A stretch of 64,000 nucleotides of DNA from a candidate division FCPU426 bacterium (lineage in GTDB: Bacteria; Oederibacteriota; Muellerivitia; Muellerivitales; Muellerivitaceae): NCBI GenBank assembly GCA_027452205.1, contig DAIDGV010000024.1:528750-592749 (forward strand). Direction: 5' to 3'. A program made the translations under genes and the position numbers. Positions 7,395 through 45,077 of this stretch are shown in pieces. The notes under the pieces are model-generated. The model saw only the letters and a program-made list of their open reading frames with translations. It ran no database searches and had not been told where the DNA came from. How positions within the stretch are numbered: position 1 is the stretch's first letter; each line of letters opens with the position of its first letter.

Positions 7395-10300
7395 TTGATA
7401 AACGAATCCGAACTTGAAAATTTAGCGATAACTTGGTTCCAAGACACAGGCTGGGAATATCGATTCGGCCCGGATATTGCCCATGACGGTGACACACCCG
7501 AACGAGTCGATTACCGGCAAGTCGTTTTAACAGGCAGGCTTTTAGAAGCGCTTCGCAGATTAAATCCCGGTATGTCTGATTCTGTCCTCGAAGAAGTCGT
7601 CAGCCGCATATCAAAACCCGAAAATCCTTCTCTCATCCTGAACAACCGCGCTTTTCATGAAGCTTTGGTGGATGGTTTGTCGGTGGAAGTAGTGAAAGAT
7701 GGTGAGAAACGGGGGGATCGCGTTCGGCTGTTCGACTTTGAGTACCCGGAAAAGAACCAGTTCCTAGTTGTTAACCAATTTACCCTGCAAGGCACTCGGC
7801 AATTGCGCCGGCCTGATTTGGTTTGTTTCATCAACGGTCTTCCCATAGCCGTGATTGAACTGAAAAACCCGGCTTTGGAGCAGGTGGATATTTGGGAAGC
7901 TTTTAATCAGCTTCAGACCTACAAAGAAGAAATCAGCGATTTATTCGTTTTCAATGAAGCCCTGGTCATTTCGGATGGGACAAGCGCCCGGGTAGGTTCT
8001 TTAACGGCGGATAGGGAACGTTTTCTGCCGTGGCGTACCATTCGAAACCAGGACGACAAACCTTTATTGGAATATGAACTGGAAAAGGTGGTGCGTGGAT
8101 TTTTCGCGCCGGACTTGTTGATGGATTATTTAAGGTCTTTCATTCTTTTCGAACCGTCGGATGATGGGTTAATCAAGAAGATTGCGGGTTACCATCAGTT
8201 TCACGCGGTTCGTGAAGCCGTGAAAGCCACGGTGATTGCCTCTTCCGAACCCAAGTCGGTGGTGGAAGTGTACGAACCCAGGGCGCGGCATGGGGAAACG
8301 GTAGAACCAGGTTCCCGCAGGGGCGGTATTGTTTGGCATACGCAGGGGTCGGGAAAAAGTATTTCCATGGCTTTTTTCGCGGGCAAGCTGATGCAGGAAC
8401 CCCAAATGCGGAACCCCACCCTAGTTGTGGTGACGGATCGAAATGACTTGGATGGACAGCTTTTCGATACATTCGTGGGCGCTCGTGCCCTTTTGAAAGA
8501 AACCCCGGAACGGGCGGAGGATAGGGAAGGCTTACGCAAATTACTGGCGGGCCGAACTTCGGGCGGGATTATCTTTACCACCATGCAGAAGTTTTCCACT
8601 GAAAAAGATGAAGACCAATTCCCACGCTTGACCGACCGCACGAACCTGGTGGTGATCGCCGATGAGGCCCACCGCACCCAATATGGCTTTAAGGCGATCC
8701 TCGACAAGAAAACAGGCAAGTATAAATACGGTTATGCGACCCATTTGCGGGAAGCCCTGCCTTATGCCACCTTCGTGGGTTTCACCGGCACTCCTGTGGA
8801 AAAAGAAGACCAAGATACCCGGAAGGTATTTGGCGATTACGTCAGCATTTATGACATTCAAGATGCGGTGGACGATAAGGCCACCGTGCCCATTTATTAT
8901 GAAAGCCGTTTGGCCAAGCTGGATATCAACCAAGCCGAAATTGAGAAGTTAAGCGGTGAAGTTGAGGAAGTCTTTGAGGATGAGGAAGACGTGGCCCTGC
9001 GGGAGGCCCAGAAAACAAAATGGTCCACCTTGGAGAAACTGGTGGGTGCCGAACCCCGGTTAAAGGAAGTGGCCGCCGATATTGTGAAGCACTTTGAGGC
9101 CCGTAACACGGTAATTGAAGGCAAGGGACTGATTGTTTGCATGAGCCGGGAGATATGCGCGAGGCTTTACCAGGAAATTGTCGCCTTAAGACCCGATTGG
9201 CACAGCGCGGACCCAACCCAAGGCGCTTTAAAGGTAGTGATGACCGGTTCGGCGGCGGACGTGGAGTTGTTAAGGCCCCACCTTTACACCAAGAAAACCA
9301 AGAAGGCGCTGGAGAAGCGGTTCAAAGACCCGAAAGACCCCCTGAAATTGGTCATCGTGCGAGATATGTGGCTGACCGGTTTTGACGTGCCCTGCCTGCA
9401 CACCATGTATGTCGATAAACCCATGCGGGACCATAACCTGATGCAGGCCATTGCCCGGGTCAACCGCGTGTTCCGCGACAAAGAGGGTGGGTTGGTGGTG
9501 GATTACATCGGCATTGCCTCGGAACTGAGGAATGCCTTAAAGATCTACACCGAAAGTATGGGTAAGGGCACTCCGGCTTCGGCGGTGAAACAAGAACTGG
9601 AAAAGTTGCGGGAAGAAGTGGATATCGCTAGGGTGTTACTGCATGGGTTTGACTATTCGGCCTATCGCACCAAAGCCATTTCTCTTTTAATGCCCGCCGC
9701 CAATTTTATTTTGGGGTTGGAGGAAAAGGCGGGTAAAGACGGCAAAAAGCGTTGGTTTGATACGGTCTTAAGAATGACGAAGGCCTTTTCGCTCTGCGGA
9801 ACCATGGACGAAGCTTTGGCTTTGCGGGAGGAAATCGCCTTCTTCCAGGCGATCAAGACGGTTATTGCCAAGGCTACGACCCCCGATAAAAAGCTTTCGG
9901 AAGAAAACCGAAACAGCATTCTGCACCAAATCATCAACAACGCCGTCGTTGCGGGCGGGGTTGAGGATATTTTTAAGTTAGCAGGTTTGGAAAAACCGAA
10001 CATCGGTTTGCTGTCGGATGCCTTTATGGATGAAGTTCGGCGGATGCCCCAAAGGCATTTTGCTGTGGAATTGCTGCAAAAGCTTTTAAATGACCAAATC
10101 CGGTCTCGCGCCCGAACCAACGTGGTATTGGAGAAAAAGTTCAGCGATAGGCTGCAAGATGCCCTCAACCGTTACCGGAGCCGGGCTATTGAAAGCGCCC
10201 AGGTCATTGAAGAACTCATTGCGATGGCCAAAGAATTTCAAGAGGCCCTTCAACGCGGCGAAAAACTGGGGCTTAATGAATCCGAATTTGCCTTTTATGG

Positions 10301-11448: not shown

Positions 11449-11560
11449 AAGCCGAACAAAACTAATCCATAACAAAGGGGGCAGGCTGGACTTCCCCGAT
11501 TTAGTGGGCACTTAATTCGGCGAAGTCTTGGGGACAGTCTTCATTTTGTATCCAGCCTAG
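11449..11560. other. Gene-free spacer with repeated GGGGNCAG motifs
   Basis: No gene was found here. Two short related motifs occur, AAGGGGGCAGGCTGGA (11475-11490) and CTTGGGGACAGTCTTCA (11527-11543). Both resemble the start of the long repeat that follows (AAGGGGTCAGGCCTAAAG). They look like degenerate copies of the same REP-like end sequence. Confidence 0.45.
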
Positions 11561-11703
11561 GAACCAAGGGGTCAGGCCTAAAGATCATAGTTAAGGCTTT
11601 TCCTCGTAATTTCATTCTCCACTCCGCATTCTTCGTTCGTTTGCCTCAAAGACCACGTTTCTCGCATGCACATATTTGCTCAGGCCATTCATTCGGCCAA
11701 TGG
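11561..11703 (+). repeat. Long direct repeat, copy 1 (~142 bp)
   Basis: This copy matches 14217-14357 with 9 substitutions and one 2-nt gap (about 92% identity). It begins GAACCAAGGGGTCAGGCCTA and ends GGCCAATGG. It carries no credible reading frame. It starts after a degenerate motif cluster and stops 5 nt short of the stop codon of the HdeD-like gene, so it closely abuts that gene's 3' end. Most differences between the copies are C/T changes. Confidence 0.9.
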
Positions 11704-13961: not shown

Positions 13962-14216
13962 TCATTTTTGTTCTTCATCCAAATATTTCTGCAGATCCTC
14001 CACCAACCTAAAGAACCCATAAAGATCGATTGGCTTGACCAGGTAAGCCTTGGCTTTCAGTTCCATCACTTCCCGCATGTCCGAATCCAACTTAGAGCTG
14101 GTGAGGACGACCATTTTGAGGTTCTCGAACTGGGGCTGAGCTTTGACCCGGCGCAAGAAGGTGCGTCCGTCCATTCGCGGGAGATCGAGGTCTAACAGGA
14201 CCATTAAACCTTGCAG
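13962..14216 (-). pseudogene. Truncated response-regulator receiver domain
   Basis: The frame encodes the second half of a CheY-like receiver: MVLLDLDLPRMDGRTFLRRV (with the phospho-acceptor Asp), VVLTSS with the conserved Ser/Thr, and AYLVKPIDL with the conserved Lys-Pro. The first ~50 residues are missing. The frame runs without a stop into the long repeat at 14217, exactly where homology is lost, so the repeat or a recombination at it removed the 5' half. It is unlikely to be functional. Confidence 0.8.
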
Positions 14217-14357
14217 GAACCCAGGGGTCAGGCCTAAAGATCATAGTTAAGGTTTTTCCTCGTAATTTCATTCTCCACTCCGCATTTTTCATTCGTTTGT
14301 CTCAAAGACCACGTTTCTCGTATGCACATACTGGCTGGCCATTCATGCGGCCAATGG
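14217..14357 (+). repeat. Long direct repeat, copy 2 (~141 bp)
   Basis: This is the partner of 11561-11703, in the same orientation. Its left end (GAACCCAGGGGTCAGGCCTA) is the point where the response-regulator gene is interrupted. The two copies bracket a 2.5-kb segment holding the HdeD gene, the 120-aa gene and the XRE/nucleotidyltransferase pair. Confidence 0.9.
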
Positions 14358-33592: not shown

Positions 33593-34768
33593 ATGTCCTC
33601 GCGCGCTCCCGAACGGATCCCCGTCGTCGATCTCATCCGGCTCTTCAGCATCATCCCGGTGATGGGACTCCATTTTTTCCTCAGCGGCGTATCGAAAGGG
33701 TATCCGCCCCTTTTGTGGCAAGGGATCATCCATACCTTCGCCAACGGCACATTCGGCGTCAGTTGTTTTTTCGTGGTCTCGGGGTTCGTCATCACCAAGA
33801 TGCTGGTCGGACCCAGCGGGAATTTCCAAGGTCTTAACCTGAAAGCTTTTTATGTCCGCAGGGTGGCCCGGCTCTTTCCACTGCTGGCGGTGGTGCTATT
33901 GGCGGGGCTCGCTATCCTCGCGACCCATCCCCAAAGCGATTACGCGATGAGCCTTTGTTACCGCGGGCCCAACTCCCATTTCGAGTGGGGTTTTTGGGCC
34001 AGTCTTTTCACCTTCACCTTCAATTGGTTCATCCTGCTCAGCCATCAGGATGTCAGCTTCCATTGGGGCGTGCTTTGGTCCCTGGCGGTGGAAGAGCAGT
34101 TCTATCTTTTTTACCCGCTCTTGGTCAAAGCCTTGGGGAACCGCCGCAAGGTGATGCTCTTCCTCGCCGGGGTGGTCCTGTCGGCGATCCTGTTCCGCGC
34201 GGGAGTCCATCTTTGGGCGCCCCGGGATTTTTTGATGAGCACCATCGCTTCCTTCGGGGTCTTCGACCAGATCGCCCTGGGCGCGCTGACTTATTTTCTT
34301 TTGCCCTTCGCGGAGGATCTTTTTAAAAAGAGGCCTTGGTTCAGTGGACTATTCTTTTTCGGCGGGGCGGTCCTGGTGCTGGCGGTCTATTACGGGACAT
34401 CCATCGTGGACACGGGTCTTTTGATCTGGACGCCGACCTGCCTGGCCCTGGGATGCGCGCTGATGATCATCGGAGGCATTCACCTGAAATTCATGAACGG
34501 ACAGTGGATGAAGATCCTGTCCTGGCCTGGCCAACTCAGTTACGGCGCTTACCTGTGGCACGTGACCTTCCTGTTCCTCTTTTGGCCGGTCTTTTCCGCG
34601 ATGGGGCCCTGGGCGCCCCTGCTCTATTTCCCGGGGGTCGGCCTTTTTTGTTACGTTTCTTACCGGTGGTTCGAGCGGCCCGCGAACGCTTGGGTCCGTC
34701 AGGTCTTCGGGAAAAAGCCTGGTAAACCCTTTCCCGACATCGCTTCAAAGGAAAGACTAGGCATCTGA
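33593..34768 (+). CDS. Acyltransferase 3 family membrane protein
   Basis: The start RIPVVDLIRLFSIIPVMGLHF carries the family R...H arrangement, and about ten membrane segments follow (e.g. FGVSCFFVVSGFVITKML). WSLAVEEQFYLFYPLL is the canonical OafA/YrhL motif. Such proteins O-acylate cell-surface glycans. It has 391 aa. No Shine-Dalgarno is visible, and a TAAGAT -10-like hexamer ends 6 nt before the ATG. Confidence 0.9.
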   Translation: MSSRAPERIPVVDLIRLFSIIPVMGLHFFLSGVSKGYPPLLWQGIIHTFANGTFGVSCFFVVSGFVITKMLVGPSGNFQGLNLKAFYVRRVARLFPLLAVVLLAGLAILATHPQSDYAMSLCYRGPNSHFEWGFWASLFTFTFNWFILLSHQDVSFHWGVLWSLAVEEQFYLFYPLLVKALGNRRKVMLFLAGVVLSAILFRAGVHLWAPRDFLMSTIASFGVFDQIALGALTYFLLPFAEDLFKKRPWFSGLFFFGGAVLVLAVYYGTSIVDTGLLIWTPTCLALGCALMIIGGIHLKFMNGQWMKILSWPGQLSYGAYLWHVTFLFLFWPVFSAMGPWAPLLYFPGVGLFCYVSYRWFERPANAWVRQVFGKKPGKPFPDIASKERLGI

Positions 34769-34816
34769 CCCTTCTGATAAGATAACCAGGTCGGTCACTC
34801 ACTCCAGGAGGATGTC

Positions 34817-35182
34817 ATGGATAAAGTCTTGGGTCTGGTCGGTCGTATTCTGTATTCCGTTCCCTTCGTGCTTTTCGGGCTGGGTCATTTGATGAACGCC
34901 GATCAGATGGGCGGGATGGTGCCCGCTTATATCCCCGGCGGCGTGGTCTGGGTCTATCTGACCGGCGTTTGTATGATCCTGGCGGCGGTTGCGATCATCA
35001 CGGGCATCCAGGCCCGGTTGGCCTGCTTTGGGCTGGTCCTGATGCTTTTCATCTTCATCCTGACCATCCATTTGCCGGGCATGATGAACCCCCAAATGAA
35101 GATGATGGCCATGATGGCTCTTTTCAAGGACACCGGCCTTATGGGCGGGGCCTTGGTCATCGCCAGCATTTCGAAAAAGTAG
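34817..35182 (+). CDS. DoxX-like small membrane protein
   Basis: Four hydrophobic segments and the start LGLVGRILYSVPFVLFGLGH then LMN match the DoxX/SURF4-like family. A methionine-rich loop (MMNPQMKMMAMMALF) lies before the last helix. AGGAGG precedes the ATG. A strong terminator follows at 35199. Confidence 0.8.
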   Translation: MDKVLGLVGRILYSVPFVLFGLGHLMNADQMGGMVPAYIPGGVVWVYLTGVCMILAAVAIITGIQARLACFGLVLMLFIFILTIHLPGMMNPQMKMMAMMALFKDTGLMGGALVIASISKK

Positions 35183-35198
35183 TTCTTTTGATGAATCC

Positions 35199-35226
35199 AG
35201 GGCCCCTCTCGGGGCCCTTTTTTATT
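35199..35226 (+). terminator. Rho-independent terminator after the DoxX-like gene
   Basis: Arms AGGGCCCC and GGGGCCCT with a TCTC loop form a perfect 8-bp stem followed by TTTTTTATTT. Confidence 0.92.
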
Positions 35227-35258
35227 TCCGCCGGTCTTTGGTTGCGGGATGAGTTTGT

Positions 35259-35276
35259 TATAATCGCCTCCTCATG
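35259..35276 (+). promoter_or_regulatory. lipA -10 element next to the start codon
   Basis: TATAAT (35259-35264) lies 9 nt before the lipA ATG. The intervening CGCCTCCTC is anti-Shine-Dalgarno-like, so there is no ribosome site. Only a weak -35 (TTTGGT) is seen. Leaderless or near-leaderless transcription is likely. Confidence 0.65.
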
Positions 35277-36158
35277 ACGAACCCGACCTTGCCGCGCCAA
35301 CCGATCCCTTTTTTCCTCATCAACCCCAACCCCAAACACCCCTTCCGGGAAGCCATCGCGAAGCTTCCGATGAACGGGATCCATACCATTTGCGAGGAAG
35401 CCAAATGTCCCAACCGGGGCGAATGCCTGCCCAAGCACGGCACGATCTCCATCATGGTGATGGGTTCCATCTGCACCCGGGGCTGTCCTTTCTGCGCGGT
35501 CACGACGGGTAAACCCCTGCCCCTGGACCCGACGGAGCCCCAGAAGGTGGTCGATATCGCCAAGGCCCTTCAAGTGCGCTATTTGGTCATGACCTCGCCC
35601 AACCGGGATGAGTTACCCGATGGCGGCGCTTTGCAATTCACCAAGATCGTGCGGGCCCTGCGGGACCATGACGCGGCGCTCAAGATCGAGATCCTGGTGC
35701 CGGATTTTCTCGGCAAAGAAGAGGCCTTCAAGGCACTATTGCTCGATCCGCCGGATGTGATCGCCCACGACCTTCAGACCATTCCCCGGCTTTATGGCCC
35801 CATCCGCCCAGGCGCCATTTATGAACGCTCGCTCGGGCTCTTTCGCTGGTTCCAAGCCAACACTGATACTTCGAGGACTCTACTGAAGGCAGGCCTTATG
35901 GTGGGCTTTGGTGAGACCGAAGAAGAAGTGAAGGGTGTCCTCAAAGACGCCGCCCAGGCAGGCGTCCAATTCTTCACCATCGGCCAATACCTAAAGCCGC
36001 CCGGATCGATCCTGGACGTGACCGAATATGTCCCCTTGGACCGCTATGCGCGTTGGACCGAGTATGGAAAGACCATCGGGTTGAACGTTCAGGCCAGTCC
36101 CTTGACCCGTTCCAGCTATTTAGCGGACCGGTTGGCGAGCCATGGAACCCAGGGTTAA
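35274..36158 (+). CDS. lipA: Lipoyl synthase
   Basis: LipA is a radical-SAM enzyme that inserts two sulfurs into octanoyl groups on carrier proteins such as GcvH. The auxiliary cluster cysteines are Cys40, 45 and 51 (CEEAKCPNRGEC) and the radical-SAM cysteines are Cys67, 71 and 74 (CTRGCPFC). The C-terminal RSSY motif that closes the auxiliary cluster is present (LTRSSYLAD). Length of 294 aa is normal. Its end overlaps the next gene by 17 nt. It likely modifies the GcvH encoded at 24522. Confidence 0.97.
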   Translation: MTNPTLPRQPIPFFLINPNPKHPFREAIAKLPMNGIHTICEEAKCPNRGECLPKHGTISIMVMGSICTRGCPFCAVTTGKPLPLDPTEPQKVVDIAKALQVRYLVMTSPNRDELPDGGALQFTKIVRALRDHDAALKIEILVPDFLGKEEAFKALLLDPPDVIAHDLQTIPRLYGPIRPGAIYERSLGLFRWFQANTDTSRTLLKAGLMVGFGETEEEVKGVLKDAAQAGVQFFTIGQYLKPPGSILDVTEYVPLDRYARWTEYGKTIGLNVQASPLTRSSYLADRLASHGTQG

Positions 36159-36921
36159 ATTTAAAAATTTTTCGCGGGCCCTCCGGGCCCTTTTGTTGCC
36201 ATTTCTTCTCATCAGCCTCTGGCAGTGGCTCAGTTACCTAGGCCTTTTGCGGCCAACCCTTTTACCTTCCCCCCTCACCATCACCCAAACCGGTTGGGAC
36301 CTTTTAAAGACCGGGGAACTTGAAAAACATTTGGTCATCAGTTTGATCCGGGTTTTTCAAGGGTTCCTCATCGGCGCGGGGCTCGGTCTTATCCTAGGTC
36401 TAGCCCTGGGGCTTTCTGAAAAACTGCGCCAAGCGACCCAGCTTTTGACCGAGTTCTTGCGGCCCATCCCCACCATCGCCTGGGTCCCCATCCTCATCCT
36501 CTGGATGGGCATCGATGAGGGTTCCAAGATCACTGTGATCGCTATCGGCAGTTTCTGGCCGGTTTTCCTCAACACCATTCAGGGTGTGCGCCAAACGGAC
36601 CCACATTATTTAGAGGTAGCGCGGGTGCTGGAAAAACCCCGCTGGGTGTTACTGACTCGGGTCGTCCTGCCCTCGGCCCTGCCCTCGATCTTTACGGGTT
36701 TTCGGATCGGAATGGGAATTGCCTGGGCCAGTGTGGTGGGCGCGGAACTGATCGCGGCCTCCTCGGGTATCGGGTTCATGATCCTTTACGCCCGGGAAGT
36801 TTCCCAGCCGGACGTGGTGCTGGTCGGGGTGGCGGCCATCGGGCTGACCGGCTTGGCCATCGACACCTTGCTCCAAAAGCTGGAAAGCGCGCTTTTGAAA
36901 TGGAATTCCCATGTCCCGTGA
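36142..36921 (+). CDS. ABC transporter permease (sulfonate/nitrate/taurine type)
   Basis: The protein has six predicted helices and the inner-membrane permease EAA region (LEVARVLEKPRWVLLTRVVL then PSALPSIFTGFRIGMGIAW), like SsuC/TauC/NrtB. The 259-aa length is normal. It overlaps lipA by 17 nt and the ATPase gene by 11 nt. The three-gene transporter cannot be assigned to a substrate from sequence alone. Confidence 0.92.
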   Translation: MEPRVKFKNFSRALRALLLPFLLISLWQWLSYLGLLRPTLLPSPLTITQTGWDLLKTGELEKHLVISLIRVFQGFLIGAGLGLILGLALGLSEKLRQATQLLTEFLRPIPTIAWVPILILWMGIDEGSKITVIAIGSFWPVFLNTIQGVRQTDPHYLEVARVLEKPRWVLLTRVVLPSALPSIFTGFRIGMGIAWASVVGAELIAASSGIGFMILYAREVSQPDVVLVGVAAIGLTGLAIDTLLQKLESALLKWNSHVP

Positions 36922-37642
36922 CCTGATCCTTCAAGGAATTTCCAAGACCTACGCCAACGGGGTCACGGCGGTGCAAGGCATCGACCTGACCTTGCGCGCG
37001 GGCGAGTTCGTTTGCCTGGTGGGGGAAAGCGGCTGCGGCAAAAGCACCCTGCTTCGCATGATCGGCGGGCTTGAACCGGCGACCCAAGGTTCCATCACCT
37101 CAGACGGCCAGGCGGTGACTGGGCCGGGACTGGACCGGGGCATGGTCTTCCAGGATCACCGGCTTTTTCCCTGGCTGACGGTGGAAGAGAACATCGCATT
37201 CGGTTGCGGGGAAAGCCTTTCACCGACCGATAAACAAAGATCCGTGGAAGAACATCTGGAGCTGATCGGTCTGCAAAGCTTCCGGAAAGCCTATCCCCAT
37301 CAATTATCCGGCGGCATGAAACAACGGACCTCCCTGGCCCGGGCCCTGGCGGCAAAACCCCAAGTGCTTTTGATGGATGAGCCTTTTGGCGCCTTGGACG
37401 CCTTGACCCGTATCCACCTGCAGCAAGAACTGCTCAAGCTATGGCAAAAAGAAAAGATCACGGTCCTCCTAGTGACCCACGATATCGACGAGGCGGTCTT
37501 CCTGGCCGACCGCATCGCGGTCATGACGCCTCGCTTGGGAACTTTCCGCCAGGTTCTGGATGTTCCTTTGGCCCGGCCCCGGAACCGAAACGAGGAAGGG
37601 TTCATCGGCTTGCGTAAAACCCTTTACGACCAGTTCTTCTGA
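36911..37642 (+). CDS. ABC transporter ATP-binding protein (SsuB/TauB type)
   Basis: Walker A GESGCGKST (residues 38-46), Q-loop VFQDHRLFPWLTVEENIAFG, signature LSGGMKQR near 132 and Walker B VLLMDEPFGALD identify the ATPase of the transporter. The 243-aa length is normal. It energises the permease encoded just upstream and pairs with the binding protein downstream. Confidence 0.95.
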   Translation: MSRDLILQGISKTYANGVTAVQGIDLTLRAGEFVCLVGESGCGKSTLLRMIGGLEPATQGSITSDGQAVTGPGLDRGMVFQDHRLFPWLTVEENIAFGCGESLSPTDKQRSVEEHLELIGLQSFRKAYPHQLSGGMKQRTSLARALAAKPQVLLMDEPFGALDALTRIHLQQELLKLWQKEKITVLLVTHDIDEAVFLADRIAVMTPRLGTFRQVLDVPLARPRNRNEEGFIGLRKTLYDQFF

Positions 37643-37709
37643 AGGGACCCTTGCCATTCCATGACATTTCAGGCAATTTAGGGCGGTTCGAAATGCCCTG
37701 GAGAGACCC

Positions 37710-38660
37710 ATGAAAACCCTTCTTCACGCCATCCTCCTTCTTTTGGCCCTGCTTTCGTCCCCGGGGGCGCAGACCCTGCCGACGGTCCATATCGGCTACC
37801 AACCCTCCAGCGCCATCCTTTGGGTTGGAAAAGCCAAGGGCTATTACGAGAAAGAATTCGAGAAACTGGGCGTGAAGGTGGAGTGGGACCTTTTCCTTTC
37901 CGGCCCGCTCATCACCGAAGCCGCGGCCTCGGACCGGGTGGATCTTTTCGCCATTGGGAATATGCCGCCCTTGACGGCCAAGGCCGGAGGGATCGATATG
38001 GTGATCATCGCCAACGCGGCTTTCAACCCGGCGACCAACGCGGTGCTGGTGCGGCCCCATTCCAATATCCATTTCATTTCGGACCTCCGGGGTAAAAAGG
38101 TCGCGGCGCAGGTGGGTTCCAGCGTCCATTATTTCCTGTCCCAGGTCCTGGCGACGGCGGGGATGTCCGTCGATGACGTTCAACTGGTCAACCTGAACGC
38201 CCCGGATCAAGGCGCGGCCTTGAGCAGCGGCGCGGTGGACGCGGTAGTGTCCTGGCTGCCTTACCGCGCGCAATTGGAGAAGGATAAAAAAGCGCGGGTA
38301 CTGGTGGATTCGGCCAAGTTCCCGGGGTCCTACAGTTTTTACGGAACCCGCGCGGATTTCGCCAGGGACCATGTGCAATGGGTGAAAGCCTTCCTCCGCG
38401 CGACCCAGAAGACCAACTATTACGTGAAAAAACACCCCGCGGAAACGGTGAAACTATTGGCCCAACAGAACCGTTTCTCGGCGGCGGTGCTGACCGAGAC
38501 CCTGAAGGGTTTTGATTATTCCATGCAGGTCCAACCCGCGGAGATCGAGACGATGAACGACATCAAGAAATTCCTGCTGGGCGCCAAGGTCATCCGCAAG
38601 GATTTCGATATCCAGGGCTTGTTCGACGACCGCTATTGCCGCGCGGTGGGGGCTCTTTGA
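37710..38660 (+). CDS. ABC transporter substrate-binding protein (SsuA-like)
   Basis: A signal peptide (MKTLLHAILLLLALLSSPGA) precedes an NMT1/SsuA-like fold: VHIGYQPSSAILWVGKAKGY, DLFAIGNMPPLTAKAGGIDM, LRGKKVAAQVGSSVHYFLSQ and AVVSWLPYRAQLE. It should be periplasmic and capture a sulfonate-, nitrate- or pyrimidine-like ligand. The 316-aa length is normal. The gene starts 67 nt after the ATPase. Confidence 0.92.
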   Translation: MKTLLHAILLLLALLSSPGAQTLPTVHIGYQPSSAILWVGKAKGYYEKEFEKLGVKVEWDLFLSGPLITEAAASDRVDLFAIGNMPPLTAKAGGIDMVIIANAAFNPATNAVLVRPHSNIHFISDLRGKKVAAQVGSSVHYFLSQVLATAGMSVDDVQLVNLNAPDQGAALSSGAVDAVVSWLPYRAQLEKDKKARVLVDSAKFPGSYSFYGTRADFARDHVQWVKAFLRATQKTNYYVKKHPAETVKLLAQQNRFSAAVLTETLKGFDYSMQVQPAEIETMNDIKKFLLGAKVIRKDFDIQGLFDDRYCRAVGAL

Positions 38661-38962
38661 CCTTGGAGGACCATCGCCACCGGGTCACGCTCTATACCCA
38701 GGATAAAAAACCGTTGCTCGTCGACGAGCTTAAGAACTGGGCGGAGCAGGGCCTCCGGCATTTGCCTTCCCGCTTTCCCGGTCTGAAGATCATCGAGGCG
38801 ACCATCGAGCCCGACCGGGTGAAGTTGACCCTGGATTTCCAGCGGATCGACGAGGACCTGGTGCGGGTACTGCAGACCTTCAAGGCCGAAGTGAAGAACA
38901 TCGCCAAGAAAAAAGGGTTCGAGGGCGGATCCCTTTGGCAGTGGCAGTTCGACGAAGAGTAG
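38657..38962 (+). CDS. Small Y1-transposase-like protein lacking catalytic residues
   Basis: The 101-aa protein resembles the core of REP-associated Y1 transposases. IIEATIEPDRVKLTLDF stands where transposases have xxYxxMPDHVHLxxxx, and LVRVLQTFKAEVKNIAKKKG then SLWQWQFDE where they have xxFKxxxxxxxx...xWQxxFxD. The HUH pair is replaced (HVH to RVK) and the C-terminal catalytic-Tyr helix is absent. The start is a TTG overlapping the previous stop, with GTGGGGG upstream. It may be a domesticated nucleic-acid-binding relic; homology is my reading and needs profile support. Confidence 0.5.
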   Translation: MTLEDHRHRVTLYTQDKKPLLVDELKNWAEQGLRHLPSRFPGLKIIEATIEPDRVKLTLDFQRIDEDLVRVLQTFKAEVKNIAKKKGFEGGSLWQWQFDEE

Positions 38963-38963
38963 G

Positions 38964-39629
38964 TCAGTTCGAGGCGGAGAGGTTCACCTTGGCCGCCCTC
39001 AAGAGCGCTTCCGGGTCCACCCGCTTTTGGAAGTTCGAATTGTAATAAGAGAAAACGATCTTTCCCTTTTGGTTCACGATATAAGCGGCGGGCACAGGCA
39101 AAAGCCCCAAATTGTTACCGGTCGCGTCCTCCAGGTTGTGACCGTATTTGCGCAGGGTCATTTGCATATCAGGGCTGACCCGGTAAGCCAAGCCGAAAGC
39201 CTTCGTCAATTCCATCGTCGGGTCCGACAGCAGGGTATAGGTCAATTGGTTGCGCTTGGCCATTTCTTTCAAGTGATAAGCGTTGTCCGGGGTGACGGCC
39301 AGCACTTGGTATCCCAAGCGCATCAGGTCGGACACGATAAATTGGATCTTGTAGAGGTGCTCGTTACAGTAAGGACACCAGCTGCCGCGATAAAAAAGAA
39401 GGACCGTGGGTTTTTGGGCGACCAGGGCCTTCAGTTGGATCTCTTTTCCCTCGGCGGTCCGCAAGGTGCCATCGGGGATCATGGCGCCCCGTTCTAAAGG
39501 GCGAACCAGATCGTCCGAGTCGGCGATCTTGCCGGCGGTGGAAAGGTTGGGGCCGGTCGTGGCCCCCGCCTGGGCGAAAGCCCAGGAAGAGGTCAGCGAG
39601 AGCAAAAGAACCAAAAGAAAGCGGCGCAT
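38964..39629 (-). CDS. Secreted peroxiredoxin/thioredoxin-like protein
   Basis: A signal peptide ends near AFAQAG (residue 21). The AhpC/TSA-type fold has the CXXC motif GSWCPYCNEH with Cys85 and Cys88, then VLAVTPDN and VPAAYIVNQKGKIVFSYYN. It likely reduces peroxides or handles thiols in the periplasm. Only 1 nt separates its end from the convergent gene at 38657. The 221-aa length fits. Confidence 0.88.
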   Translation of the reverse strand: MRRFLLVLLLSLTSSWAFAQAGATTGPNLSTAGKIADSDDLVRPLERGAMIPDGTLRTAEGKEIQLKALVAQKPTVLLFYRGSWCPYCNEHLYKIQFIVSDLMRLGYQVLAVTPDNAYHLKEMAKRNQLTYTLLSDPTMELTKAFGLAYRVSPDMQMTLRKYGHNLEDATGNNLGLLPVPAAYIVNQKGKIVFSYYNSNFQKRVDPEALLRAAKVNLSASN

Positions 39630-39695
39630 AGGAAATCCTTCAAAGGGAATAACGGCCCCTTTACTAAGGTCCCGGCGGTTTAAAAGTTACAGATC

Positions 39696-41108
39696 TTAAG
39701 GTTTTTGATATTGGGCTATCAGTTTGCTGCGCAGGTCCATTAGTTTTTGGGTGGCGCCCACCTTGTAAGTGTGCGGGTTCTCGAAGCGCTTATGCTCCGG
39801 CGACATCTTCGCGAGGCGTTCCTTGGCGTAAGCCGCGCATTCCTTGACCGTGAAATGGGTCAGGATCTTGCCATTTTCCATCACCTTGAAAAGCAGGTTC
39901 TCCGGGAAGCAATGGGCGACCCGGCTCTTCTGGTCCGGAAAGAGTGGGTGATAGATATATTCGGTCGCTTTTTCGTCCTCCAACAAGATGCCATCCCCAT
40001 AAAAAAGACCCTCGGGGTCCATGTAGCGCACGACTTTCTTCACGCCGGGGAGGGAAGTTTTGGCGATATTCTCCGATACCTTCAAAGTGGCCTTTTGGTC
40101 ATAACTGCTCAGTTTATAGACCCCGTCCAAGGCCGGCGTATCCTGGCCGGTCAAGAGACTGGTCCCGACGCCGTAAACATTGATCGGCGCGGATTGGTCA
40201 TGAAGGCTCTTGATGATGTTCTCGTCCAACTGGTTCGAGGCCACGATCTTCACGTAGTGCAAGTCGGCGGTATCAAGCATGGCGCGGGCCCGCTTGCTCA
40301 AATAGGCCAGATCGCCCGAATCCAACCGGATGCCCACCAACCGGTGGCCCTGCTGTTCCAATTCTTTCGCCACCACAATGGCGTTGGGGATGCCGCTTTC
40401 GAGGGTGTTGTAGGTATCGACCAAGAGGATGGTGCGGTCCGGGTAGATCTTGGCGAATTCCCGAAAGGCGGTCAGCTCGTCCGGAAAACTTTGGATCCAG
40501 GAATGGGCCTGTGTGCCCGAGGGAGACAGGTTGTAGAGGAACGAGGCATAAACGTTGGAGGTGCCGTTCACGCCGCCGATGGCGGCGGCCCGGGAAGCCT
40601 GGATGCCCGCTAAACCCTGGGCCCGGCGGAAACCGAAATCGATCACCCGGCGGCCATGGGCCGCTTGAACCACCCGGGAAGCCTTGGTGGCGATGAGGGA
40701 CTCGAAATTGAGGAAGTTCAGGAGCAGGGTCTCGATGAGCTGGGTCTCCAGCAAGGTGCCCTCGACCCGCACCACGGGCTCCAAGGGAAAGACCACCTCA
40801 CCTTCCCGGGCCGAATAGACCTTGCCCCGGAAGCGGAAGTCCCTCAGGTAATCCAGGAATTTTTGCTGAAAGCCCTGCTCCCGCAGGTATTCCAGGTCCT
40901 CTTTGCCGAAATGAAGCTCCTCGAGGGCCTCTAAAAGGTCGGCCAACCCGGCGAAGAGCACATAACCGCCCTTGAAGGGATTGTCGCGGAAGAAGTAATC
41001 GAAACAAGCGTGAGTGTCGGCCTTGCCGGTCAGGACGAACCCTTGGGCCATGGTGAGCTCGTAAAAATCCGTATAAAGGCCGGAGTGTTGGCTGATGAGG
41101 GAGGACAT
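39696..41108 (-). CDS. pncB: Nicotinate phosphoribosyltransferase
   Basis: The enzyme joins nicotinate and PRPP in NAD salvage. The start LYTDFYELTMAQGFVLTGKA, then ATKASRVVQAAHGRRVIDFG then FRRAQG, and LVDTYNTLESGIPNAIVVAK are characteristic NAPRTase blocks, and GIRLDSGDLAYLSK carries the conserved catalytic region. It has 470 aa from the chosen start MSSLISQ at 41108. The start lies 7 nt after a perfect TATAAT with no Shine-Dalgarno; an ATG at 41117 overlaps the -10 and is unlikely. Confidence 0.95.
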   Translation of the reverse strand: MSSLISQHSGLYTDFYELTMAQGFVLTGKADTHACFDYFFRDNPFKGGYVLFAGLADLLEALEELHFGKEDLEYLREQGFQQKFLDYLRDFRFRGKVYSAREGEVVFPLEPVVRVEGTLLETQLIETLLLNFLNFESLIATKASRVVQAAHGRRVIDFGFRRAQGLAGIQASRAAAIGGVNGTSNVYASFLYNLSPSGTQAHSWIQSFPDELTAFREFAKIYPDRTILLVDTYNTLESGIPNAIVVAKELEQQGHRLVGIRLDSGDLAYLSKRARAMLDTADLHYVKIVASNQLDENIIKSLHDQSAPINVYGVGTSLLTGQDTPALDGVYKLSSYDQKATLKVSENIAKTSLPGVKKVVRYMDPEGLFYGDGILLEDEKATEYIYHPLFPDQKSRVAHCFPENLLFKVMENGKILTHFTVKECAAYAKERLAKMSPEHKRFENPHTYKVGATQKLMDLRSKLIAQYQKP

Positions 41109-41121
41109 AGCGGGCATTATA
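41109..41121 (-). promoter_or_regulatory. pncB -10 element beside the start codon
   Basis: On the minus strand TATAAT (41121-41116) is followed by GCCCGCT and the ATG at 41108. The predicted transcription start coincides with the start codon. No -35 consensus is evident. Confidence 0.6.
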
Positions 41122-41171
41122 GACTCAACCGGACCCGGGACCCACCCCGGAAAGGGCGTGTCAGCGGGCTT

Positions 41172-43106
41172 TTAGCGGCACAACCACTGGGGCAGGGCCA
41201 TGGTCAGCCAGGGAATATAGGTAATGGCGAAGACCATGGCGTGAAGGATCAGGTACATGGGCAGAACGGCCAAATAGACCTCGCCCATGGACTTTTTGAA
41301 GCGGTAGGACGACAAGAAAAGGTTCAGTCCCAGGGGCGGGGCCAGGAAACCCAGTTCCATATTGGCCAGGAAGATGATCCCCATGTGCACCGGGTCCACG
41401 CCGAAGGCGGCGGACATCGGCATCAAAAGGGGAACGACCACCACGATGGCGGCGAAGATCTCCAACAAGCTGCCCACCACGATGAGCATCAGGTTGACCA
41501 TCAAGAGGAACACCCATTGGCTATGCACGGTGGCATGCACCCAGGCGGCCAGTTGGGCCGGCACTTGAGCGTCCACCATGTCGTTGGTAAAGCCCAGGGA
41601 CACGCCCAAGATGAGCAGCACGCCGCCCACCAAAATGCCGCATTCGGTGATGACCTTGGGAACATTCTTGATCTTCAATTCGCGGTAAATGAAGACCTCG
41701 ACCACGAAGGTATAGAGCGCGGTCAAGGCGGCGGATTCGACCAGGGTGACCTTGATGACGAAAAGGAAAATGAAAACGACGAGGGGTAACAACAGTTCCC
41801 ATTTGGCGCCCCACGCCGCGGCGAGGGCCTCTTCCTTCCGGAAAGGATGCTTGGCGGCCTGTTCCTTAGAACCTTTTGCCATACCCCACCAAGCGGTGAT
41901 AAAGAGCAGGATGAATCCGGGCACGATGCCGCCCAAGAACAATTGGTCGATGGGCGTGTGGGAGACCACGCCATAAAGGATGACTGGCAAGCTGGGCGGG
42001 AAGAGCATGCCCAGGGATCCGGCGCTGGTCAAAAGACCCAAGGCGTCCCGTTCTTTATATTTTTCGGCCAAGAGGATCGGCATGAGCAAGCCGCCCAAGG
42101 CCAGGATGGTCACCCCCGAGCCGCCGGTGAAACAGGTGAAGAAAGCACAGACCAAAGCGGTGACGATGGCAGGCCCGCCCTTGAGCCAGCCGAAGAAGGC
42201 CTGGAAGACACGCAGCAACCGTTGGGAGGCGCCGCCCTCGGCCAAGAAATAACCGGTCAGGGTGAAGAGAGGAATGGTCGGGATCGTCGGGGAGACCACC
42301 ATGCGGTAGGTTTCCGCGGGGATCGAATCGATGGGGGTCGAGGAGTTCCACAAAAAGATCAGGGCCGCGCCGCCGAGCACCAGGAAGACCGGCATGCCCA
42401 TGATGACCGCGACCATTAAAAGGCCGAAGCAGATATAGATGAACGACTCGGAAGGGTTATGGATGGCCGGGCCCAAGGCCGAAAAGGCCACGGCCAGCAC
42501 CAAGGTGACGAAACGAAGGCTGTTATGTTCCGACGAGCGCCAGATCATGCGGCCGACGATCATGGTGAAACCCACGGGCAGGAAGAAGAGGATGACCCAC
42601 TTGGGGATGCCCACCGCGATGATAGAGCCTACCTGCTGCTCGATCATGGCGTATTGATAACTGGCCTTGACCAGGTAGAGGGTAATGGCGGAACCAAGCC
42701 CGGTGGTAAGGACGTGGACGAAGGTCTTGAAACGGTCCGGGATCATGCTGGCGGTGGTGGCCAGCTGCAGCAATTTGCCTTCGCGGGCGGCGACCGCGCC
42801 GCCGAACATCATGATGGCCAGGGTCGCGTGCTGGACCAAGGCCAGGGAACCGGGCACCAGGGAGACCGGCACCAGGCTGACGTATGCGTGCAGTTTGCGC
42901 CCGAGGATGTCCAAGAGCGGCAGGGCCATCATCAACGCGAAAAAGAAGGTCAGGAAAAGGTTCTCGGCGGGATGCCAAAAGGCCGGGCGGGCGGGTGCCT
43001 CACCCGGGTGGGACATGACACTTTCGTTCGGGTCCGCCATGGCGGCGGAGATCTCGGAGATCCTTTTCGTTCGGTTTTTTTTGACCGGTTTTTTCCGAGA
43101 AACCAT
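41172..43106 (-). CDS. TRAP transporter fused small and large permease (DctQM)
   Basis: The first ~220 residues are a DctQ-like four-helix unit after a hydrophilic N-terminal extension; the remaining ~420 are a DctM-like large permease (GMPVFLVLGGAALIFLWNSS, FTCFTGGSGVTILALGGLLM, GLLTSAGSLGMLFPPSLPVI). Fused DctQM proteins drive solute uptake by ion gradients. The start shares one base with the DctP stop (TAATG). Substrate is unknown; the operon context is TPAT-like. Confidence 0.93.
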   Translation of the reverse strand: MVSRKKPVKKNRTKRISEISAAMADPNESVMSHPGEAPARPAFWHPAENLFLTFFFALMMALPLLDILGRKLHAYVSLVPVSLVPGSLALVQHATLAIMMFGGAVAAREGKLLQLATTASMIPDRFKTFVHVLTTGLGSAITLYLVKASYQYAMIEQQVGSIIAVGIPKWVILFFLPVGFTMIVGRMIWRSSEHNSLRFVTLVLAVAFSALGPAIHNPSESFIYICFGLLMVAVIMGMPVFLVLGGAALIFLWNSSTPIDSIPAETYRMVVSPTIPTIPLFTLTGYFLAEGGASQRLLRVFQAFFGWLKGGPAIVTALVCAFFTCFTGGSGVTILALGGLLMPILLAEKYKERDALGLLTSAGSLGMLFPPSLPVILYGVVSHTPIDQLFLGGIVPGFILLFITAWWGMAKGSKEQAAKHPFRKEEALAAAWGAKWELLLPLVVFIFLFVIKVTLVESAALTALYTFVVEVFIYRELKIKNVPKVITECGILVGGVLLILGVSLGFTNDMVDAQVPAQLAAWVHATVHSQWVFLLMVNLMLIVVGSLLEIFAAIVVVVPLLMPMSAAFGVDPVHMGIIFLANMELGFLAPPLGLNLFLSSYRFKKSMGEVYLAVLPMYLILHAMVFAITYIPWLTMALPQWLCR

Positions 43107-44128
43107 TACTGGGCGGCTTCCTTGGACGCGTGCTTGGCTCGGTATTCATCCCGGTATTTCACGGCCAGGTCGAAGATATCGGTCGGGATGACGGTCCCGG
43201 AAATTTGCGGATAAGCCGCCTCGAAGGTTTTTTCCCACTTCTCATAGATGGCATCATCCACGTCGTGGACGATCAGTCCCTTGGATTCCATCACTTTGAT
43301 GGCCTTGTCGTTGCCCGCGCGGATCTCGGTGCGGAAACGCTTTCCCGCGGCCGCCGCGGCCTTGAGCATGGCCGGCTTGGCCGAGGCGGGGATCGCGTCC
43401 CAGGCCTTGGTGGTCACGACGGTGGCGCCCACCAGGGGCTCCCACTTCACGTTGGTCATGTGGGGGGCCAGGGCGAACCATTGGAAGGACAGCGCCGATA
43501 GGGGTGTGGTGTCGAACGAGTTAATAAGACCGGTCTGTAAATTGGGCAGGATATCGGTGGCAGCCAAGGGTACCGGTGAATAACCGGCGGATTTCCAAAT
43601 GTTCATCGTGTCGGTATCGTCGCCCCAAACGAAGAACTTCATTTTTTTCAGGTCTTCGGGGGTCAAGATAGGTTCTTTGCCGAAGAAATAGACCCAGCCG
43701 GCCTCACCCCAGTTAAGAACTTTGAAGCCCTTTGCCAAAAGGCGCTTTTCGAGGATGGGTTGCAGCTTAGAGCGCACATAATCGCTTTCGGCGTCGTTCT
43801 TATATAAGAAGGGGATGGAAAGGGCCTGCACAGCCTTGTCGATCTGGGCCAAGCCCACCACAGTGATGATGCCCGCTTGGATCTGGCCGATGCGCATCTT
43901 GCTGACGATATCGGGCTCATCGCCCAACACGCCGCCCGGATAGACCTGCAGCTTCACGCCGGCGGCCTGCCATTCCTGGCCCATGTCGCGAGTGATAAGG
44001 TCCCAGGAAGACCCTTCGGGGGCCAGGGTGCCGAGTTTGAGGACCATGTCCTCGGCTTGGAGATCCGTGGCCACGAAGGCCGCGGCCAGGGCCAGGATAA
44101 CGACCAATCTTTTCCAGATGTTCAACAT
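43106..44128 (-). CDS. TRAP transporter solute-binding protein (DctP type)
   Basis: A signal peptide (to about residue 25, LQAED) precedes a DctP/TatP-like fold: VLKLGTLAPEGSSWDLITRD, AGIITVVGLAQIDKAVQALS, and FFVWGDDTDTMNIWKSAGYS. The Arg that contacts carboxylates in C4-dicarboxylate proteins cannot be placed with certainty, so the ligand is open. GGGAGAG lies upstream of the ATG. It is encoded between TatT and the DctQM permease. Confidence 0.93.
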   Translation of the reverse strand: MLNIWKRLVVILALAAAFVATDLQAEDMVLKLGTLAPEGSSWDLITRDMGQEWQAAGVKLQVYPGGVLGDEPDIVSKMRIGQIQAGIITVVGLAQIDKAVQALSIPFLYKNDAESDYVRSKLQPILEKRLLAKGFKVLNWGEAGWVYFFGKEPILTPEDLKKMKFFVWGDDTDTMNIWKSAGYSPVPLAATDILPNLQTGLINSFDTTPLSALSFQWFALAPHMTNVKWEPLVGATVVTTKAWDAIPASAKPAMLKAAAAAGKRFRTEIRAGNDKAIKVMESKGLIVHDVDDAIYEKWEKTFEAAYPQISGTVIPTDIFDLAVKYRDEYRAKHASKEAAQ

Positions 44129-44147
44129 AGTCTCTCCCTTGACGGAT

Positions 44148-45077
44148 TTACTTCACGAATAAAGTGTCCGCGCGGGCCAATAGCCACTTCGCGCGTTTTT
44201 GGTCGATCAAATTGACCAACCGGATGCTCTTGTTCTTGTCCACGTCGATATCCAAGGCCTTGTTGAGCATCTCCTCGAATTCCTCGCGGTTCTGTTCTTT
44301 CAGGTCCACGGCCTCGGCGTAATTCAAGTAGGCGGAAGCGCTCAATCCCTTGGTCAATTCCAAGGCCTTGTCGTAATGTTCCTTAGCCTTCTTGATGGAG
44401 CCGCCCATCAAAGTGGGTTTGCCGGCCTCGTAAGTGATGAGGAACTCCTGCAGGGAACCATCACCATAATTGGGGTCCAGTTGCTCGACCCGGTAGATCA
44501 TGGCCTCGGCCTGGGGAATGTCGGAGACCAGCTCCGGGTCGTCCTTGCCGATGGAGATGGCGGCCATCCAAGAAACACTGGTCCAATAGAGCAAATCCAG
44601 GTCGTCCTTATTCGTGTCCTTCACGGCGGCTTTGGGGTCGGTCATGATCTTTTGGCTGAAATGGTCGTGACGGGTGTCCAGACCCCGCAAACCGTATTCC
44701 AAAGCGCGTTGGTAAAGTTTCTTGGCCCTCACCCGCATCTCCCGGGCCTGGCTGTAATTGGCATCGGCGATATAGTCGGCCTCGACCTGGATGTAAGCGT
44801 AGCTATATTCGGTGAAGCTCTGGCAAAGGGTGGTCAAAAGGGCGGTGTGGCGGGGTGTGGCCGCCAGGATGCTCTCCATGAACTTCAAGCTGAAGGGGAT
44901 GGCGTCACCCACCAATTGGGGATCATTATCGGAAGAGAAGGTGTCGCCCTGTCCGGCCAATCCATCGGCGACGGAGTTGACGGCCATGGACTTGATGAAA
45001 CAGCCGTTCAAGACGGGCGAAAGGGCCAAGAGGGCCAGTAAGGCCAGGAAAGATCCTCGGGTGGTCTTCGAAAACAT
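44148..45077 (-). CDS. TatT-family TRAP-associated TPR lipoprotein
   Basis: A lipoprotein signal with lipobox VLNGC (Cys26) is followed by helical repeats matching the TatT family known from Treponema pallidum, where a trimer of TPR protein TatT binds the DctP-like TatP. Key stretches are ALEYGLRGLDTRHDHFSQKI and WTSVSWMAAISIGKDDPELV. It is the first gene of a TatT-DctP-DctQM operon, the tripartite-associated TPAT layout thought to move hydrophobic ligands. Confidence 0.88.
   Translation of the reverse strand: MFSKTTRGSFLALLALLALSPVLNGCFIKSMAVNSVADGLAGQGDTFSSDNDPQLVGDAIPFSLKFMESILAATPRHTALLTTLCQSFTEYSYAYIQVEADYIADANYSQAREMRVRAKKLYQRALEYGLRGLDTRHDHFSQKIMTDPKAAVKDTNKDDLDLLYWTSVSWMAAISIGKDDPELVSDIPQAEAMIYRVEQLDPNYGDGSLQEFLITYEAGKPTLMGGSIKKAKEHYDKALELTKGLSASAYLNYAEAVDLKEQNREEFEEMLNKALDIDVDKNKSIRLVNLIDQKRAKWLLARADTLFVK

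Follow-up and report, generated by a model that had tools for sequence, protein, structure and literature searches.

RAYTs, or TnpAREP proteins, are considered to be transposases that have been domesticated. The E. coli enzyme has Y115 as its catalytic tyrosine and N119 as the third ligand of the metal (accessible parts of PMC8266576 and PMC6006769). The accessible text of PMC8266576 also reports that helix alpha3 and Q95 of E. coli TnpAREP contact the REP hairpin, and that C-terminal deletions of 34 and 21 residues impair binding. A 2018 survey of TnpA-Y1 proteins took intact HUH and Tyr motifs as the sign of a functional enzyme and set the other sequences aside, keeping 722 of 924 (PMC6006769, accessible part).

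We analyzed a short gene in a 64,000-nucleotide stretch of DNA (the window) from a bacterium of the FCPU426 lineage. A preliminary description, made from the letters of the window, had named its product a possible domesticated REP-transposase-like protein, and this proposal is supported by a match to RAYT profiles, a Y1 fold, conservation in all eight genomes of the host family, and purifying selection. Compared with RAYTs of the RLKNYDY type (G159, G190, G227, G296, G317), the family protein has the same beta-alpha-beta-beta-alpha-beta core, FK helix and WQ strand, but it is without the HUH pair, the Tyr helix and the RLKNYDY segment, and it has a new acidic DED stretch and a near-neutral charge. 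With the TnpA proteins of IS200/IS605 elements (IS608, 2vju; ISDra2, 2xma) it shares the fold but not the catalytic residues, and the family gene, with one copy per genome and no match in phages or plasmids, shows no sign of mobility. Taken together, an origin from a RAYT, the loss of catalysis and domestication are jointly well supported, and we hold the three together to be highly probable.

The gene and its ABC neighborhood

The gene lies downstream of a set of ABC transporter genes on the same strand:

35274..36158, + strand, radical SAM protein (Radical_SAM E 1e-15), overlapping the start of the permease gene; we take it to be lipoyl synthase, LipA
36142..36921, + strand, ABC permease (BPD_transp_1 E 6.9e-27)
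36911..37642, + strand, ABC ATPase (ABC_tran E 2.1e-35)
37710..38660, + strand, SsuA-family (sulfonate-type) ABC solute-binding protein (TIGR01728 E 2.2e-64), the co-directional neighbor
38657..38660, + strand, TTGA overlap, read from the sequence: TTG start of the Y1/RAYT-core gene and TGA stop (38658-38660) of the solute-binding protein gene
38657..38962, + strand, gene for the Y1/RAYT-core protein that has neither HUH nor the catalytic Tyr; 101 codons and a stop codon

As read from the sequence, the gene starts with TTG at 38657 and stops with TAG at 38960-38962; a mechanical list of open reading frames takes an in-frame TTG further upstream, at 38636, as the start and gives 108 amino acids. 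The next gene on the 3' side, which is convergent, encodes a redoxin-type protein. An Rfam scan of 34500-41500 gave zero matches, and the counts of promoters and terminators were not above those in shuffled sequences. Elsewhere in the window, at 41172-45077, the genes of a TRAP transporter, a T-component included, adjoin a nicotinate phosphoribosyltransferase gene, and several relatives have similar genes there.

The preliminary description had the gene coupled to the ABC binding protein by a TTG start. The TTG/TGA overlap is real, and in the six family genomes (of eight) that have ABC genes upstream of the gene, the orthologue overlaps the stop of the binding-protein gene in every case, through TTGA in G000, G002, G006 and G007 and through ATGA in G003 and G004. 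The coupling is not fixed, however. In genus g2 (G001 and G005) the orthologues have an ATG start of their own, no ABC genes at the locus, and a position after lipA and a gap. No homologue of the binding protein was found at E<=1e-10 in either genome (G001, 99% complete; G005, 94%), and apart from a chance match of 8 residues the gap between lipA and the gene held no ABC remnant. Since both genomes keep the Y1/RAYT-core gene, a link to the operon is frequent without being a requirement.

These data bear on a possible role as a regulator that serves only the neighboring sulfonate-type ABC transporter and whose translation keeps pace with that of the binding protein. The upstream ABC genes and the start overlap in 6/6 ABC-linked genomes are what such a regulator would show, but a shared operon is weak evidence of regulation, and genus g2 keeps the gene where the binding protein is missing, so that the role is not confined to the ABC operon. 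We therefore regard a dedicated transporter regulator as quite unlikely.

In genus g2 the gap between lipA and the gene (L010, L014) holds a small, lysine- and serine-rich, secreted-looking frame at the place where other genera have the ABC transporter. In G001 the same gap (L010, within 8100-8800) contains the palindrome CCCTCTCCCCTCTAGGGAGAGGG.

Homology to active RAYTs

The preliminary description had also stated that core blocks of Y1 transposases seem present, which was borne out by profile, alignment and fold, and it had proposed an HMM-HMM comparison as a check. We aligned the profile of the family with that of six close RAYTs, all of which retain the HUH and Tyr motifs and come from genomes that do not belong to the phylum. 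hhalign gave a probability of 98.48, an E-value of 2.9e-15 and a score of 89.4; when the columns of the family were shuffled, the highest score in 30 trials was 25.1. The probability was 90.7 against ten mixed RAYTs; against twelve more distant RAYTs the match was weak (probability 11.6, score 25.9; shuffles at most 17.8). The HMM-HMM comparison thus links the family to active RAYTs.

Single-sequence searches gave weaker matches. The NCBIfam model REP_Tyr_transpos matched 7/8 members with a best E of 2.1e-5, at 26 bits and so far under the curated cut-off of 80, and Y1_Tnp matched three of the eight (best E 0.0014). The window protein by itself reached E 0.07 with REP_Tyr_transpos and did not match Y1_Tnp, and a Pfam scan of it returned OAF_N at E 0.098 only. 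As these matches of the window member are weak, it is the orthologues that carry the proof. A sequence-only search of the PDB with the profile of the catalytically dead family found no transposase (best E 0.17). Two other weak matches, to CARF in PADLOC (3/8 members, best E 0.0027) and to a PHROGs entry (E 0.054), were taken as chance.

Loss of the catalytic residues

Two segments of the window protein show the loss:

38810..38836, + strand, residues 52-60, P-D-R-V-K-L-T-L-D, the strand that bears the HUH pair in active enzymes (alignments)
38936..38959, + strand, residues 94-101, WQWQFDEE, the last strand and C-terminus, after which active enzymes have the catalytic Tyr helix that is missing here (alignment and structure comparison)

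In alignment columns 54 and 56, which hold the HUH histidines of active enzymes, the eight members read RRRRRRRG and KEEEEEEQ, and none of them has a histidine at either position; the window protein has R54 and K56 in place of the two histidines. The arrangement of a catalytic tyrosine followed four residues on by N or Q, after WQ, is likewise missing from 8/8 members, and the proteins end 5 to 22 residues past WQW. The preliminary description was thus right that both the HUH pair and the catalytic Tyr helix are gone, and what it said of one protein applies to all eight. The family also lacks the RLKNYDY segment that the close RAYTs have at the N-terminus. As neither catalytic feature was found, the protein is a RAYT by descent and not as an active enzyme; in its mode of action it may still resemble the part of a RAYT that does the recognizing.

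Predicted fold

An AlphaFold2 model built from the eight family sequences alone had a mean pLDDT of 84.1 and the order strand-helix-strand-strand-helix-strand. In a Foldseek search of the PDB the best 30 matches were all Y1 transposases (E 1.8e-7 to 1.1e-4), followed by an unrelated entry at 4e-3. Structure comparison with VIA-align gave Z 14.3 to IS608 TnpA (2vju, its residues 4-114) and Z 13.4 to ISDra2 TnpA (2xma), with 99 aligned residues. The Z-score to the E. coli RAYT 4er8 was 9.4 over residues 9-101, a match that ends short of Y115 and N119. The best unrelated row, a designed ferredoxin fold, had Z 8.8, and the score to 4er8 alone is therefore not decisive. We repeated the prediction with the most divergent member, that of G003 (pLDDT 81.8), and its top 30 Foldseek matches were again Y1 transposases only. 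The preliminary description had staked its case on a structural match to the Y1 fold, and both models gave one.

Distribution, descent and selection

The truncated form, whose conservation was the other check proposed in the preliminary description, is present in all eight genomes of the host family (G000-G007), with one match per genome at E<=0.01. Among the other 37 genomes of the phylum none had a match of orthologue strength; of the weak matches there, the one in G013 (L040) is an intact RAYT and the one in G015 overlaps a match to the RAYT profile. A sample of 384 genomes gave 24 matches in 22 genomes, 16 of them (in 14 genomes) outside the family and none of these of orthologue strength. 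Six of the 16 were examined (L091-L094, L117, L118) and all six had the HUH and Tyr motifs; the E-values of the other ten were 8e-4 to 0.01. No relative was found in viral contigs or, with one orthologue as query, in phages and plasmids.

The orthologues are 44-57% identical to the window protein, and the family has 28 invariant columns in common. In a tree of 34 rows the eight members formed one clade (support 100/97), placed in one half of the tree with RLKNYDY-type RAYTs and IS200, where the fork to the exact sister is drawn open. The family is thus one clade, single-copy and, among the genomes searched, confined to one family of the FCPU426 lineage. The gene is under purifying selection: in the closest pair, G002 and G007, dN was 0.032 and dS 0.335 (dN/dS about 0.1), dS being high or saturated in many other pairs.

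These results leave very little room for a decaying, functionless transposase fragment, to which we give the lowest weight of all the explanations. The gene is indeed truncated and catalytically dead, and the 2018 survey classed sequences without the core motifs as probably non-functional (PMC6006769, accessible part). A decaying fragment, however, would not be expected to have an open frame in 8/8 genomes with 28 invariant columns, a dN/dS of about 0.1 in the closest pair, and a start coupling retained in six genomes. That a single gene is conserved throughout the family although all its cutting residues are lost suggests that the cell has another use for the leftover fold.

One such use could be to inhibit RAYT or IS200 transposases that are still active, either by forming mixed dimers with them or by blocking access to their hairpins. 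Several genomes of the family, G002, G004 and G005 among them, do contain active-looking RAYTs, and one in G005 (L014:7832-8434), intact and with both the HUH and the Tyr motif, is encoded about 2.9 kb downstream from the dead gene. However, G001, at 99% completeness, keeps the gene and has no Y1_Tnp match at E<=0.1, and the RAYT profile finds only the dead gene in G007. We consider inhibition of transposases very improbable.

The intact RAYT gene of G005 adjoins a nicotinate phosphoribosyltransferase gene. The genome from which the window comes has one full IS200-type TnpA (L061, contig C16:144-503). It also gives four Y1 matches that are short and partial, of which two lie at the start of a contig.

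The conserved surface

The segment that corresponds to the hairpin-binding helix of RAYTs is one of the best-kept parts of the protein:

38858..38911, + strand, residues 68-85, the homologue of alpha3, the helix with which RAYTs bind hairpins (model and alignment; role of alpha3 from the accessible part of PMC8266576)

By mean entropy the most conserved parts are the strand that once bore HUH (0.61), the next loop with D60 and D65-E66-D67 (0.36) and the helix 68-85 (0.65), against 0.94 overall. Alignment places this helix on the DNA-binding helix alpha3 of TnpAREP (PMC8266576, accessible part). Its net charge is +4 in 7/8 members, the window protein included, and +3 in the other, and 7 of its 18 positions are invariant. 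Q95 is also invariant in the family, and the retained WQ and FK residues are common to the family and the aligned RAYTs.

Several observations count against hairpin binding. K82 of TnpAREP, which makes a base contact, aligns with A, S or N in the family, and R104 is gone with the tail, a C-terminal loss larger than the 34- and 21-residue deletions of the E. coli protein. The core has a net charge of -1 to +4 in the eight members, compared with +1 to +8 in 11 RAYT cores; having drifted towards neutral charge, it is ill suited as a strong general nucleic-acid binder. The family alone has the new, invariant acidic stretch formed by D60 and D65-E66-D67, which the aligned RAYTs lack.

Some of these observations bring in the main rival, in which the Y1 core, a ferredoxin-like fold, has been reused for a protein partner, a small ligand or a metal through the acidic LD-x(4)-DED stretch. 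The neutral overall charge and the new acidic stretch would suit it, and, as the lower rows of the structure matches show, many domains of this fold class bind ligands or proteins. What it leaves aside is that the alpha3-homologous helix carries +3 or +4 in 8/8 members and is among the parts most conserved, and that Q95 and the WQ and FK residues in common with RAYTs are kept. We consider such reuse rather unlikely.

We favor, with a probability of roughly 0.55, a domesticated pseudo-transposase that still binds a nucleic-acid hairpin without cutting it, and that is a candidate regulator or chaperone. The retained hairpin binding itself, which we infer from the helix and Q95, has in our estimate a slightly better than even chance of being correct.

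Repeats in the host genome

A crude scan for perfect stems over 464 kb of the 2.9 Mb host genome found no high-copy family of palindromic or hairpin repeats that the protein might recognize, which within this scope counts against hairpin binding. Contig C24 (stretches L106, L112, L113) has a repeat that starts with TAGCCACAGATGCAGGGGAT, which occurs with its close variants about a dozen times in 464 kb; several times two copies face each other at a distance of 150-500 bases, an arrangement that resembles a small MITE or REPIN. The window also holds two direct repeats of 122 bases (11559-11680 and 14215-14336) that are 93% identical and 2.7 kb apart.

Discussion

TldR is a TnpB-derived, RNA-guided protein that is unrelated to the family protein. 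As an analogy only, it is a disabled protein from the IS200/IS605 element class that has been kept as a regulator (PMC13418256, accessible part). Unlike for TldR, no guide RNA is proposed here. More specifically, and tentatively, as a reading a little short of even odds, the family may represent a Y1/RAYT transposase cut down to its hairpin-reading core and kept family-wide as a non-cutting nucleic-acid binder, which would make it the TnpA-side counterpart of the dead TnpB-derived regulators.

The steps of a pseudo-transposase that binds without cutting can be outlined as follows. The beta-alpha-beta-beta-alpha-beta core of a RAYT has stayed; substitutions have removed the HUH metal site, and a truncation has taken away the Tyr helix. 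With the alpha3-equivalent helix and the glutamine in the WQ strand, the protein may then bind a folded single-stranded hairpin, either ssDNA or an RNA of similar shape. It would take effect by sitting on the hairpin, which it leaves uncut, and could in this way serve, for instance, as a regulator or as a chaperone of nucleic acids. Translation of most members is tied to the ABC operon.

A literature search, with most subscription papers outside it, found no report of a conserved RAYT that lacks HUH. Because the 2018 survey set motif-less sequences aside, this step may explain why such a family lacks a description (PMC6006769, accessible part). A member conserved family-wide without catalytic residues shows that a filter for intact motifs can hide real genes. 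If hairpin recognition by the Y1 fold is separable from cutting, as the favored reading would have it, this family would allow one to study directly what benefit a cell draws from recognition by itself.
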